NCBI RefSeq assembly: GCF_013249065.1
Contig: NZ_JABRWQ010000003.1
Coordinates: 434,001-498,000 of the forward strand
DNA length: 64,000 nt
DNA from: Winogradskyella litoriviva
GTDB taxonomy: Bacteria > Bacteroidota > Bacteroidia > Flavobacteriales > Flavobacteriaceae
Reading direction: 5' to 3'
Shown here piece by piece: positions 8,949 through 24,796 of the stretch. Positions within the stretch are counted from its first letter, which is position 1. Every line of letters starts with the position of its first letter. A program made the translations under genes and the position numbers. The notes below the pieces were generated by a model. The model saw nothing but the letters and a program-made list of their open reading frames with translations. It was not told the origin of the DNA and searched no databases.

Positions 8949-10031
8949 TTAACCATTAATAATCTTTTCTTGGCGGTTAATAGATTCTTGGTGAACCGCT
9001 TTGAACATGCGTAAAATAAACTCTTCACTTAAACCTCTTTCTTCACCTTCTAAAACCATTTTACCTAAAATCTCGTTCCAACGTTTGCTTTGTAAAACAG
9101 CAACATTCTTTTGTTTTTTAAGTCCTCCTATTCCGTCAGCAACTTTCATTCGTTTGCCTAATAAATCTAGAATTTGGTTATCTACAACATCAATCTGTGC
9201 TCTTAAATTATTTAGCTCAGAATTGTATTGGGCTTCTGAGTCTGTTTCTTTTCTAATTTTTAAATCATTCATAATCTGTATTAAGCTACTTGGTGTAACC
9301 TGCTGTGCAGCATCACTCCATGCATTTTCTGGGTCAAAATGTGTTTCAATCATTAAGCCGTCAAAATTAAGATCTAGCGCAGTCTGAGATACATCAAAAA
9401 TCATTTCTCTGTTACCTGTAATATGCGATGGATCATTAATTAATGGTAAATCTGGAAATTTATTCTGAAACTCAATAGCGACTTGCCATTCTGGTATATT
9501 TCTATATTTAGATTTTTCGTATGTAGAAAATCCTCTATGAATTGCGCCTAAGTTTTTTACACCTGCAGAATACAATCGCTCAATACCACCTAACCATAAT
9601 GATAAATCTGGGTTTACAGGATTCTTAACTAAAACAATTTTGTCAGTCCCTTCTAATGCATCAGCAATTTCTTGCATAATAAATGGACTTACAGTAGAAC
9701 GTGCACCAATCCATAATAAATCTACATCATGCTCTAAGGCTAATTTTACGTGAGCTGCATTAGCAACTTCCGTACAGGTTTTCATTCCTGTTTCTTCTTT
9801 TACTTTCTGTAACCACTTTAAACCTAATGCACCAACACCTTCAAAATTTCCTGGTCTTGTTCTTGGTTTCCAAATACCTGCTCTAAAGTAATTAACATCT
9901 GTATCTTTTAGCTCGTGTGCTATTTTTAATACTTGCTCTTCTGTTTCAGCGCTACATGGTCCGGCTATTACTAGTGGATGATTTAATTTCATATCATCTA
10001 ACCATGTTCTCATTTCTTTTTTGTTTTCCAT
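8949..10031 (-). CDS. Bifunctional DAHP synthase / chorismate mutase type II
   Basis: This 360-residue enzyme has an N-terminal KDO8P-synthase-like DAHP synthase domain, with GPCSAET at 24-30 and the KPRTRPGNFEGVG phosphoenolpyruvate/metal-site segment. An AroQ-type chorismate mutase follows at about 271-360 (NNLRAQIDVVDNQILDLLG, then KxxKN and QSKRW). It joins the first step of aromatic synthesis to the branch towards prephenate. The C-terminal mutase probably also mediates feedback inhibition by prephenate, as in related fused enzymes. It is the last gene of the pheA-aminotransferase-tyrA operon, which carries the attenuator upstream. Confidence 0.93.
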   Translation of the reverse strand: MENKKEMRTWLDDMKLNHPLVIAGPCSAETEEQVLKIAHELKDTDVNYFRAGIWKPRTRPGNFEGVGALGLKWLQKVKEETGMKTCTEVANAAHVKLALEHDVDLLWIGARSTVSPFIMQEIADALEGTDKIVLVKNPVNPDLSLWLGGIERLYSAGVKNLGAIHRGFSTYEKSKYRNIPEWQVAIEFQNKFPDLPLINDPSHITGNREMIFDVSQTALDLNFDGLMIETHFDPENAWSDAAQQVTPSSLIQIMNDLKIRKETDSEAQYNSELNNLRAQIDVVDNQILDLLGKRMKVADGIGGLKKQKNVAVLQSKRWNEILGKMVLEGEERGLSEEFILRMFKAVHQESINRQEKIING

Positions 10032-10093: not shown

Positions 10094-10945
10094 TTACTGT
10101 ATTCCGTTTAATATTTCTTTTATATAATTTGTAGATTCCATTTCGTTATAAACCGCTTCAAAATTATCTTCTTGCATTAGTTTTTTAAAATGATTTAAGT
10201 TAGAAATATATTCATCTAACGTCTCAATTACATTGGTTTTATTTTGTTGAAAAATTGGTGTCCACATGGCTGGCGAACTTTTAGCCAAACGCACTGTACT
10301 TTCAAATCCACTACCTGCCATATCAAAAATATCGCGTTCGTTTTTCTCTTTATCAATTACTGTTTTACCAAGCATAAAAGCGCTAATGTGAGATAAATGA
10401 GAAACATAAGCGATGTGCTTATCATGTGCTTTTGGGTTCATATAACGTATTCTCATTCCTAAATCTGAAAATAGTTTTAATGCCTTTTCTTGAAGTTTAA
10501 AAGCCGTTTCTTCTACCTCACAAATAATATTTGTTTTGTTATTATACAAACCTTGAAGCGCTGCTTTAGGCCCTGAATATTCCGTACCTGCTATAGGGTG
10601 TGCAGCTAAATAATTTCTTCGTTTAGGATGGTTTTTTACTTTGACACAAATATCTTCTTTAGTAGAACCAACATCAAACACAATTGCGTTATCAGAAACT
10701 TGATCTAACACCTTAGGTAAAACGTTAATGGCTGAATCTACAGGAATTGCTAATATTACTAAATCTGCTTTTTGTAAATCTTTAAATTCTGCCGCTTTAT
10801 CTATAACATTAAGTGTTTTTGCTTCTGCCAAATGTGCTTCACTATTATCTATACCATAAATGGTAGAGTCTGGATGCAATTTTTTGATATCTAATGCAAA
10901 GCTTCCGCCAATTAACCCAACTCCTATTATAAAAATATTCTTCAT
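10094..10945 (-). CDS. tyrA: Prephenate dehydrogenase
   Basis: This 283-residue protein has a Rossmann GxGLIG motif at 8-13 for NAD(P), and AAHPIAGTE around H116, the catalytic histidine region of TyrA. A second conserved segment, DKHIAYVSHLSH, comes later. It converts prephenate to 4-hydroxyphenylpyruvate for tyrosine. No ACT or chorismate mutase domain is attached; the mutase is on the DAHP synthase. It follows the aminotransferase gene by 5 bp in the same operon. Confidence 0.94.
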   Translation of the reverse strand: MKNIFIIGVGLIGGSFALDIKKLHPDSTIYGIDNSEAHLAEAKTLNVIDKAAEFKDLQKADLVILAIPVDSAINVLPKVLDQVSDNAIVFDVGSTKEDICVKVKNHPKRRNYLAAHPIAGTEYSGPKAALQGLYNNKTNIICEVEETAFKLQEKALKLFSDLGMRIRYMNPKAHDKHIAYVSHLSHISAFMLGKTVIDKEKNERDIFDMAGSGFESTVRLAKSSPAMWTPIFQQNKTNVIETLDEYISNLNHFKKLMQEDNFEAVYNEMESTNYIKEILNGIQ

Positions 10946-10950
10946 TCTAA

Positions 10951-12093
10951 CTAAACTCTTGCTATTGCTTCTTTAATAATTTCTACTGTGGCACATAATG
11001 AAAAACGAACGTAACCTTCACCATTTTTACCAAAAACAGTTCCTGGTGTTATAAATATCGAATATTCCTTTAAAACCATATCTGTAAAATCTTCAGATTT
11101 AATTTTTGGCGGCAATTTTGCCCAAACAAATAAACCAGATGCATCTTTATCATAGGTACAATTAAGGCTTTCTGCTAATTTCCAAATTAAATCTCGTCTG
11201 GTTTGGTAGACGCTATTTAAACTTTGAAACCACATATCTGAACATTTTAAGGCTTCAATAGCTCCTTTCTGTATGCCATAAAACATACCAGAATCCATAT
11301 TACTTTTTACACGTAATACAGCACTTATAAAATCGTAATTACCAGTTAACATACCAACTCGCCAACCAGCCATATTAAATGTTTTACTTAATGAATTTAA
11401 CTCTAAGCAAACATGTTTTGCATCTTTATATCTGAGAATACTATTTGGTTTATCGTTGAGAATAAAGCTATACGGATTGTCATTTACTATTAAAATATCG
11501 TGACGTTTTCCAAAAGCAATTACTTTGTCATAAAACTTATTATCTGCATTACTACCAGTTGGCATATGTGGATAATTAATCCACATTATTTTTACACGCT
11601 TTAAATCTAAGCGTTCTAATTTTTTAAAATCTGGCTGCCAATTATTTTCCTCTTTTAAATCGTAATAAATTGGTTTTGCTTCTAACAATTTTGTTACAGA
11701 AGCATAAGTTGGATAACCAGGATTTGGTATTAAGACCTTATCACCTTTATTTAAAAAAGCCATTGAAATATGCATAATACCTTCCTTGCTTCCCATTAAA
11801 GGCAATACTTCTGTATGTGCACTTAGGTTGACCTTGTAATGCCTTTTATAGAAGTTTGCTATTTCTTCTCTTAATTCTGGCAACCCTTGGTAACTTTGAT
11901 ATTGGTGTGCTTTCTCTTCTACCAAACTATCTTGAAGCGTCATAGATGCCTTAAAAGGTGGCTCCAAATCTGGGCTACCAATCCCTAAATTAATAATAGG
12001 TTTTCCTTGTGCTTTTAATAGCGCAACTTCCCTTAATTTTTTAGAGAAGTAATATTCTTCTACATTTTGTAAACGTTTTGCAACTTCTATCAT
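10951..12093 (-). CDS. Class I/II pyridoxal-phosphate aminotransferase of aromatic amino acid synthesis
   Basis: This 380-residue fold-type I aminotransferase carries the PLP lysine in SLSKTFNMAGWR (K237) and the conserved NPGYPTY segment (124-130). Its start overlaps the stop of pheA by 4 bp (ATGA), which suggests translational coupling. Set between prephenate dehydratase and prephenate dehydrogenase, it should transaminate phenylpyruvate and 4-hydroxyphenylpyruvate (or prephenate). An ancestral aspartate or LL-DAP aminotransferase activity cannot be excluded. Confidence 0.88.
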   Translation of the reverse strand: MIEVAKRLQNVEEYYFSKKLREVALLKAQGKPIINLGIGSPDLEPPFKASMTLQDSLVEEKAHQYQSYQGLPELREEIANFYKRHYKVNLSAHTEVLPLMGSKEGIMHISMAFLNKGDKVLIPNPGYPTYASVTKLLEAKPIYYDLKEENNWQPDFKKLERLDLKRVKIMWINYPHMPTGSNADNKFYDKVIAFGKRHDILIVNDNPYSFILNDKPNSILRYKDAKHVCLELNSLSKTFNMAGWRVGMLTGNYDFISAVLRVKSNMDSGMFYGIQKGAIEALKCSDMWFQSLNSVYQTRRDLIWKLAESLNCTYDKDASGLFVWAKLPPKIKSEDFTDMVLKEYSIFITPGTVFGKNGEGYVRFSLCATVEIIKEAIARV

Positions 12094-12917
12094 CGTCTTG
12101 CATTTTTATATTCGCCCAAAATTTTAAAATTCTCCGCCATTAAATTTAAAATTGACACGGCTTTTTCGTAATCTTTATAAGCTTCAAATGTAACATCTAC
12201 AAAGAAAGCATACTTCCATGGTGTTTCAATTTTTGGTAACGATTGTATTTTTGTTAAGTTTAGTTTGCAATCACTCAATACATTTAAAATAGCTGCTAAG
12301 CTTCCTCGTTTGTGATCTAATTCAAACTTTAAAGAGGCTTTATTAATTGTACTTATGTCTTTTTGACTATTGTCTCGCTTTACAATTACAAAACGTGTTT
12401 CGTTATGTTTTATAGTCTGAATACTTTCTGCTAACAAATTTATACCATATAATTCCGCTGCATTTTTACTTGCAATGGCTGCAATTCCTTTCATATTTTT
12501 CTCTGAAATTTGTTTCGCAACATCTGCAGTATCCTTAGCTTCTACTAATTTTATATGTGGATAATTTTTAAAGAATACTTTGCATTGCAATAATGCCATT
12601 GGATGAGAATGCACTTCCTCTATATCTTCAATAGTCTGGCCGTTTAAAGCCATTAAGCAATGCTCAATACCTAAATAATATTCGCCAACAATACTTAAGT
12701 TATAATTATCAATAAGTGCATAATTAGGTATTATTGAACCTGCTATAGAATTCTCTAAAGCCATAACAACCTCATCGGTTTTATTTTCTAACAGTGAATT
12801 TACAACACCATCAAAAGACATACATTCTACGACCTCAGAATCTATATTAAAATAATTCTGAACCACTAGATGATGAAATGACCCTTTAATTCCTTGTATA
12901 GCAATTGGTTTCTTCAA
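12090..12917 (-). CDS. pheA: Prephenate dehydratase with ACT domain
   Basis: This 275-residue protein is organised as a periplasmic-binding-protein-like dehydratase domain (1-180) followed by an ACT regulatory domain (about 195-275). The catalytic TRF motif is visible in HNETRFVIV. The ACT segment includes LKFELDHKRGSLAAIL and IQSLPKIETPWKY, where phenylalanine is expected to bind for feedback control. It makes phenylpyruvate from prephenate. First structural gene of the operon, it lies 29 nt downstream of the leader terminator, so transcription should be set by attenuation. Confidence 0.94.
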   Translation of the reverse strand: MKKPIAIQGIKGSFHHLVVQNYFNIDSEVVECMSFDGVVNSLLENKTDEVVMALENSIAGSIIPNYALIDNYNLSIVGEYYLGIEHCLMALNGQTIEDIEEVHSHPMALLQCKVFFKNYPHIKLVEAKDTADVAKQISEKNMKGIAAIASKNAAELYGINLLAESIQTIKHNETRFVIVKRDNSQKDISTINKASLKFELDHKRGSLAAILNVLSDCKLNLTKIQSLPKIETPWKYAFFVDVTFEAYKDYEKAVSILNLMAENFKILGEYKNARR

Positions 12918-12946
12918 TTTTTATAGTCTTAATTATTGCACAAAAA

Positions 12947-12971
12947 AAAGTCTCAATTAAATTGAGACTTT
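12947..12971 (-). terminator. Attenuator terminator of the pheA operon
   Basis: A 10-bp perfect stem (AAAGTCTCAA/TTGAGACTTT) with a 5-nt loop is followed on the minus strand by eight T. It sits between the leader peptide and pheA, not after a gene. An upstream element GAGACT (plus strand 13000-13005) can pair with AGTCTC in the first arm and so form a competing antiterminator. Confidence 0.8.
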
Positions 12972-13011
12972 ATAATTTATATTTAAATAATACATATTCA
13001 GTCTCGTTCCT

Positions 13012-13062
13012 TTAGCTAAAAAAGAAATAAAACCAGTTATAATATGCTTTAGATATGTTCAT
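13012..13062 (-). CDS. Aromatic leader peptide of the pheA operon attenuator
   Basis: A 16-codon ORF encodes MNISKAYYNWFYFFFS. Eight of the last ten residues are aromatic: three Tyr, one Trp and four Phe. The stop codon lies 7-12 nt before the GAGACT antiterminator element, so a ribosome that reaches the stop would cover it and allow the terminator at 12947-12971 to form. Stalling on the Phe/Tyr codons would leave it free. The operon makes exactly these amino acids. No Shine-Dalgarno is visible, which is normal here. I found no confident promoter upstream. Confidence 0.8.
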   Translation of the reverse strand: MNISKAYYNWFYFFFS

Positions 13063-13188
13063 TGTTGTAATTATATCGCTAATGTAATTATTATTTTTAC
13101 AAATCAAAATTGTTGAATTGTTTTTTTAAAGAATTTTACAAAGTTTTAAAGATTTAATAAAATAAGTGGTTCAATATTCTGATTTACC

Positions 13189-24635: not shown

Positions 24636-24646
24636 TACTCTAAAAA

Positions 24647-24719
24647 TTAGAGGAAAAATTTGATCTGATTGCAACCTCTGACGCTGAATTTTCAGCTAAA
24701 ACAAAAAATGCTAAAGCAG
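24647..24719 (+). ncRNA. SAM-II-like riboswitch in the metK leader
   Basis: P1 is TTAGAGG/CCTCTGA (24647-24653 with 24675-24681) closing a loop that ends TGATTGCAA. Downstream come TAAAACAAAAAATGCTAAAGCAG, with CAAA able to pair with TTTG of the loop and CAG with CTG, in the order expected for the SAM-II pseudoknot. The terminal GCTAAAG is a SAM-II hallmark. A 6-bp hairpin (GCTGAA/TTCAGC) is inserted after P1. No terminator follows, so control is probably translational. The remainder of the 331-bp gap between the Rrf2 gene and metK is AT-rich promoter and spacer. Confidence 0.65.
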
Positions 24720-24796
24720 TAAGTTTAGGACTTCTTCTCTAGCGCACCCGCAATCTCAAATTTTTTATAATAACCATAACCTAAAACATAGGAATT

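Follow-up and report, generated by a model that had tools for sequence, protein, structure and literature searches.

A predicted ribosome-mediated attenuator before the pheA operon of Winogradskyella litoriviva, and its variation in leader content and stop position among relatives

The aromatic amino acid operon in the 64,000-nucleotide stretch of Winogradskyella litoriviva DNA analysed here (the window) is, judging from its sequence and from fold modelling, very probably controlled by a ribosome-mediated transcription attenuator. The attenuator's sequence parts, their conservation among relatives, the covariation of its helices and its predicted folds are described below; where transcription starts, translation of the leader ORF, the sensing of tRNA charging and the outcome for expression are features that we infer from sequence and modelling. 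Across the loci compared, leader peptide content appears to change with the gene controlled, and the position of the leader stop codon relative to the RNA helices varies.

Results

The locus in the window

A first-pass annotation, made from the sequence alone, had proposed an attenuator with an aromatic leader peptide upstream of pheA, and sequence inspection confirmed every part that it listed, in place and on the minus strand. The elements of the locus are as follows.

13105 to 13109, minus strand: TTTTG, -33-like box of a putative Bacteroidota promoter, its TTG ending 18 nt before the -7 box
13079 to 13086, minus strand: TACATTAG, -7-like box (consensus TAnnTTTG)
13012 to 13062, minus strand: leader peptide ORF MNISKAYYNWFYFFFS, from ATG at 13062 to TAA at 13012
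13021 to 13027, minus strand: region 1, TTTCTTT, Phe codons that could form the 5' side of a 1:2 hairpin (weak support)
13007 to 13013, minus strand: AAAGGAA, which would form the 3' side of the same hairpin (weak support)
13000 to 13005, minus strand: region 2, GAGACT, antiterminator partner of region 3
12961 to 12971, minus strand: region 3, AAAGTCTCAAT, first terminator arm, also able to pair with region 2
12947 to 12957, minus strand: region 4, ATTGAGACTTT, second terminator arm
12942 to 12949, minus strand: T8 tract of the intrinsic terminator
12090 to 12917, minus strand: pheA, prephenate dehydratase, TTG start at 12917 (PF00800, E 2.4e-56)
10951 to 12093, minus strand: class I/II aminotransferase of the operon (PF00155, E 1.3e-60)
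10094 to 10945, minus strand: tyrA, prephenate dehydrogenase (PF02153 and PF20463)
8949 to 10031, minus strand: DAHP synthase fused to chorismate mutase (PF00793 and PF01817)

Eight of the last ten residues of the leader peptide are aromatic, as had been claimed, and in 5000 rounds of dinucleotide shuffling the 276-nt intergenic stretch yielded a short ATG ORF with 8 aromatic residues in 10 codons only once. The annotated GAGACT does lie 7-12 nt past the leader stop (13005-13000) and is complementary to AGTCTC (12969-12964) within the first arm of the terminator, and the terminator with its eight T is likewise present before pheA as AAAGTCTCAAT-TTA-ATTGAGACTTT (12971-12947), a hairpin of 11 bp, 3 of them G-C, that runs into the T8 tract. 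When the 131-nt leader was folded, 1 of 200 shuffles was at least as good (z -3.37). The region 2 helix of the window has only 6 bp, and its complementarity to the first arm, assessed on the window sequence alone, reached a p of only about 0.035, so that the case for an attenuator rests on conservation. The -7 consensus used here is that quoted in the available text of PMC7366714. Pfam agrees with the annotation that the operon contains tyrA and a fused DAHP synthase, the fusion partner being chorismate mutase. The gene on the other side, which begins at about 13194 and is ABC-transporter-like by eye, diverges from pheA, and the terminator is therefore not needed by any upstream gene. Elsewhere in the window, positions 24644-24724 of the plus strand match a SAM-II riboswitch (SAM-II long loop, RF01726) at 56.6 bits.

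Conservation in the family

Of 68 genomes in the genus, 66 gave a pheA match, as did 360 of 397 in the family. We read 130 loci upstream of pheA, comprising 33 of the genus (the 30 best matches, the window's own included, and three more) and 97 spread over 94 other genera (two each for g52, g69 and g111); because these loci were drawn from the best-scoring places, distant members of the family are under-represented, apart from eight that were covered. The annotation had proposed that relatives be inspected for conserved aromatic codons and covarying stem arms, and the aromatic codons were found at every locus: all 130 have an ATG-started aromatic leader, each with at least three Phe and at least two Tyr codons. 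A terminator precedes pheA at all 130 as well, the start or the hairpin having been placed by hand at five loci (the automatic hairpin rule served for 128 of 130, L022 and L102 being hand-placed, and the hairpin that it chose at L073 was replaced by hand). The further suggestion that one leader could read Tyr, Trp and Phe needs a qualification: Phe and Tyr occur in every leader, and Trp is optional, being present in 101 of the 130 leaders and absent from 29.

Region 2 is complementary to the first arm at all loci except L073, where a convincing region 2 was not found, and the p value of this complementarity was below 0.05 in 113 of 128 scored loci (200 spacer shuffles each). A -7-like box (at least 5/6 positions, within 70 nt upstream of the leader) was present at 127 of 128 loci, compared with 81 +/- 5 for mononucleotide shuffles, and TTG stood 18 nt before it at 88 of 128. 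At two loci, L032 and L122, the leader and terminator lie about 520 and 240 nt ahead of pheA, respectively, and do not adjoin it.

Covariation of the two alternative helices

Covariation was scored in an alignment of 77 non-redundant leaders, with the proviso that related sequences inflate such counts, and covarying stem arms, the other proposed check, were found for both helices. In the terminator (3:4), 9 of 11 pairs vary on both sides and 92.6% of the cells are paired, and none of 500 shuffles equalled it on any measure. In the antiterminator (2:3), 6 of 7 pairs vary on both sides, a number reached by 16 of 500 shuffles; 80.9% of its cells are paired, against 24-44% in slid versions, and neither this paired fraction nor the covariation score of 0.226 was reached in any of 500 shuffles. 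Slid version -2 contains 28 cells with changes on both sides, compared with 24 in the real antiterminator helix, and the outermost U-A pair of the latter is formed in only 23 of the 77 leaders. Variants of regions 2 and 3 include CGAGACT/AGTCTCG, CGGGACT/AGTCCCG, TCGGAAC/GTTCCGA and GTCAGGATT/AATCCTGAT, and arm 4 follows these changes; the 2:3 and 3:4 pairings are mutually exclusive and covarying, L073 being without a convincing region 2. On the pheA tree, for which 68 of 70 rows were scored, no more than two changes of arm-3 type are needed, and covariation within the tree sample consequently rests on few events. Arm-3 types ATCCCGC and AAGCCTC were found in two other families of the order. 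RNAalifold, given the 77-row alignment, recovered the terminator alone.

The annotation had held that no separate pause hairpin is needed. This has to be qualified, since a 1:2 hairpin can form in most leaders, with 7 of 7 pairs in 110 of 117 YFFF leaders (as the best of 28 registers, without a control); its covariation support is weak, with 77.8% of cells paired against 52-72% in slid versions and with its number of covarying pairs reached in 219 of 500 shuffles.

Proposed mechanism and fold model

Transcription would start just upstream of the leader ORF, as the promoter match suggests, with a ribosome trailing RNA polymerase on the leader. When Phe-, Tyr- and Trp-tRNAs are charged, this ribosome would reach the stop codon, where its front edge would cover the GAGACT of region 2, leaving regions 3 and 4 to form the terminator and ending transcription before pheA. 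A stall on a Tyr, Trp or Phe codon would instead leave region 2 free to pair with region 3 as the antiterminator, and the pheA-aminotransferase-tyrA-DAHP synthase operon would be transcribed.

With a ribosome set on each codon in turn, we modelled the folding of the RNA left free beyond its front edge, as far as the point at which arm 3 is complete. With a footprint of A-site+11, the predicted probability of the antiterminator was above 0.5 for stalls at 422 of 422 Tyr, 101 of 101 Trp and 616 of 616 Phe positions, so that it dominated at all 1139 aromatic-codon stalls; the number was 1137 at +9 and +13. With the ribosome at the stop, all 130 loci had an antiterminator probability under 0.5 at A-site+11, and at +13 the antiterminator was likewise prevented in all 130; with the shorter A-site+9 footprint region 2 was uncovered at the stop in 29 loci, all of them early-stop loci and the window's among them. 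The switch that the annotation had envisaged, a terminator with the ribosome at the stop and an antiterminator with the ribosome stalled on aromatic codons, is therefore what the fold model predicts for all 130 loci at A-site+11. With no ribosome in the model, the antiterminator is the preferred fold in 93 of 130 loci (mean 0.66), and the equilibrium model thus fails to explain termination in the absence of translation.

Position of the leader stop codon

In 89 loci region 2 is contained within the leader ORF, in 11 it spans the stop codon, and in 30, the window's included, it comes after the stop. Most of these early-stop loci, the window's among them, have TAA where relatives have the Lys codon AAA. 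An early stop accounts for seven changes on the pheA tree, a quick tree of 70 proteins with SH-aLRT support only, and at least three of these are forced by well-supported branches; by this comparison of sequences, the leader stop has moved in front of region 2 repeatedly.

Distribution of the element

A covariance model, R1, was built from the family pheA leaders. The window's own genome gave one good match (E 3.3e-11) followed by a next match at 0.109, and its weaker matches (E 0.1-0.5) resemble ordinary terminators. In a comparison set of 16 genomes with pheA, all 16 had an R1 match at E 0.05, and the match was located at pheA in all nine pheA genomes compared (eight of the genus and G079). 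Across the order, 51 of 148 genomes had matches at E 0.1 or better, many of which are probably due to chance; 27 loci with an E of about 0.001 or lower were read, the window's included, and each lies directly before a pheA-like start as judged by eye, and two of three loci read at E 0.003-0.008 (L163 and L165) resemble ordinary terminators. Within the class, 30 of 119 genomes had matches at E 0.05. A second strong match was present in G484. When class loci were anchored on pheA, 17 of 29 (2 of the same family) had a short ORF with at least 7 aromatic residues in 10 codons within 450 nt, and 12 of 29 had no leader by this rule, which was applied without a shuffle control. A pattern taken from the leaders of one genus was also scanned against named genomes and gave at least 120 stretches. 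Among the 80 matches listed, 76 carried the name Flavobacterium in their title (F. johnsoniae once), and in 76 a pheA start lay within 420 nt; among these listed matches L225, L230, L237 and L238 had no pheA start within that distance, and F. psychrophilum did not appear.

Leader content and the gene controlled

Thirty-nine genomes were without a pheA match, and 16 of these were searched with R1, which gave a match at E 0.05 in nine. Two of them, of the same genus (L410 and L411), have leaders MNIFRAYYYSFYFFYS and MQTLKIYYTWFYFFYNKGSEA before aminotransferase-tyrA-DAHP synthase genes (identified by Pfam in the first), region 2 of L411 being modest (22 of 500 shuffles as good). At L409, MTNNNTWWSNSKFYLKR precedes DAHP synthase alone and combines WW with FY; its region 2 is weak (50 of 500 shuffles as good). 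Another pheA-less genome has MKNLNNTYYYYPILTRRIGQ before a Biopterin_H protein, which on its sequence is taken as phenylalanine hydroxylase, and in yet another the match is a his leader with HHHHFH. The match in G183 lies at a contig end, and those in G121, G122 and G145 look like chance terminators.

A search of 199 family genomes for Biopterin_H followed, and of the 30 best loci, which were read, seven have short frames. Three of these seven, from three genera (L405/L417, L415 and L420), have a Tyr-rich leader together with a terminator and a region 2, the last modest at L420 (9 of 500 shuffles as good); one leader contains YYYY, another starts with GTG and has YYYYY and a single Phe further on, and the remaining one has five Tyr besides a single Phe and a single Trp. 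No such leader was found at the short loci L414, L416, L418 and L419, and in a contrast set of long Biopterin_H genes (about 575-713 aa) the terminator rule applied gave a hairpin in 0 of 23. Two further leaders are present in the window's own genome. A trpE leader (L342, G000:C61), MKTNTNHTWWWNFSNVS, has WWW and a terminator and passes as Rfam Bacteroid-trp (64 bits, cut-off 49), and a region 2 search there had no positive result, 274 of 500 shuffles doing as well. A hisG leader (L344, G000:C44), MTFIQLHHHFHTSDQAR, has HHHFH, a terminator and a 7-bp region 2 match that 15 of 500 shuffles equalled, and scores 33.7 bits with His_leader, below the cut-off of 49. These sequences are the basis on which leader peptide content appears to change with the gene controlled.

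Discussion

Other explanations of the conserved leader have to be weighed against attenuation. It is very unlikely that the leader acts as a TnaC-like nascent peptide, arresting the ribosome in response to a free aromatic amino acid and not through slow decoding of codons. Across much of the family the leader core is strikingly conserved, and in 113 of 117 leaders the YFFF motif has TTC as its first Phe codon, both of which would suit such an arrest peptide; however, the order and number of aromatic residues vary between leaders (NNYFFF, FWNGFYFYFFF, WQGFYFYFYFF, FYYFYYFYF), the residues turn Tyr-rich or Trp-containing with the gene controlled, and TTC may instead serve the weakly supported 1:2 hairpin.

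A plain intrinsic terminator beside a chance ORF, without any regulation, would be consistent with the modest single-sequence statistics of region 2 noted above, but not with a leader and a terminator at all 130 loci, with two alternative helices that covary, or with an upstream gene that, being divergent, has no need of a terminator, and we regard it as extremely unlikely. The structured 5' element with a terminator could also be that of a metabolite-binding riboswitch or a T-box in place of a translated leader, yet the pheA leader region contains no Rfam family at cut-off, every locus has an ATG start, and the aromatic reading frame is retained while the nucleotides change, which together make such an element exceedingly improbable. 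Attenuation by a translated aromatic leader is the reading that we adopt in what follows.

Leader-peptide attenuation as such is textbook knowledge, and E. coli pheA is under this control, its pheL peptide being rich in Phe and devoid of Tyr. The window leader has its logic and target gene in common with pheL (Phe_leader, RF01859), and differs in that the flavobacterial leader contains both Phe and Tyr, and mostly Trp; RF01859 was the best of its weak Rfam matches, at 20.5 bits against a cut-off of 55. Bacteroid-trp (RF01692), listed in PMC2864571, is a leader-peptide element of the Bacteroidota with a Trp-rich peptide and a gene other than pheA, and the pheA leader scored below its cut-off and was absent among matches up to E 10. 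The closest precedent is in PMC9723704, which in its accessible part reports a structured 5' element upstream of pheA in F. psychrophilum, finds strong clues for leader-peptide attenuation before amino-acid operons, and notes pheA and hisG 5' elements without an Rfam hit in other Flavobacteriaceae genera. Gene and bacterial family are thus common to that element and the window leader; the same part of the text gives no pheA peptide, pairing or mechanism, and the overlap may be larger in the supplement. Leader-like short ORFs in B. thetaiotaomicron are mentioned in the portion of PMC7366714 available to us, and in 2010 the authors of PMC2965389 stated, in the excerpt available, that to their knowledge no leader-peptide system had been shown outside the Proteobacteria and Actinobacteria. 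The annotation's remark that such circuits are far less documented in the Bacteroidota is therefore true, but the field is not empty, given Bacteroid-trp in Rfam and the pheA and hisG elements of PMC9723704 as far as its text was available. Within the open-licence PMC literature, we found no paper giving the sequence of this pheA leader and no description of a Tyr leader before phenylalanine hydroxylase. Leader-peptide attenuation itself, Bacteroid-trp and the F. psychrophilum pheA 5' element, as reported in that part of PMC9723704, are not new; what is new here is that leader content appears to track the controlled gene, and that the stop has repeatedly moved before region 2.

The position of the stop may matter for the behaviour of the attenuator. 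According to the part of PMC1183508 available, the model of Elf and Ehrenberg for the E. coli trp and Salmonella his attenuators has the place of the stop relative to region II set basal read-through, a stop far downstream in region II lowering it; compared with that model, the pheA leaders show natural variation of the stop within one group.

We consider it somewhat more likely than not that the Bacteroidia run their aromatic metabolism through a set of leader-peptide attenuators whose codons are rewired with gene content, in which Phe and Tyr, mostly with Trp, serve pheA operons and are kept after loss of pheA, WW with FY serves DAHP synthase alone, and Tyr-rich leaders serve phenylalanine hydroxylase, and in which the recurrent stop before region 2 would be a natural dial of basal read-through. 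Classical attenuation would thereby be extended to the aromatic pathway of the flavobacteria and, at some of the loci examined, to that of other Bacteroidia, and R1 provides a covariance model for an element that is without a covering Rfam family here. The natural variants, with the stop before, across or after region 2, with Trp present or absent, and with Tyr-rich leaders on another gene, may serve for testing models of attenuator sensitivity and basal read-through.
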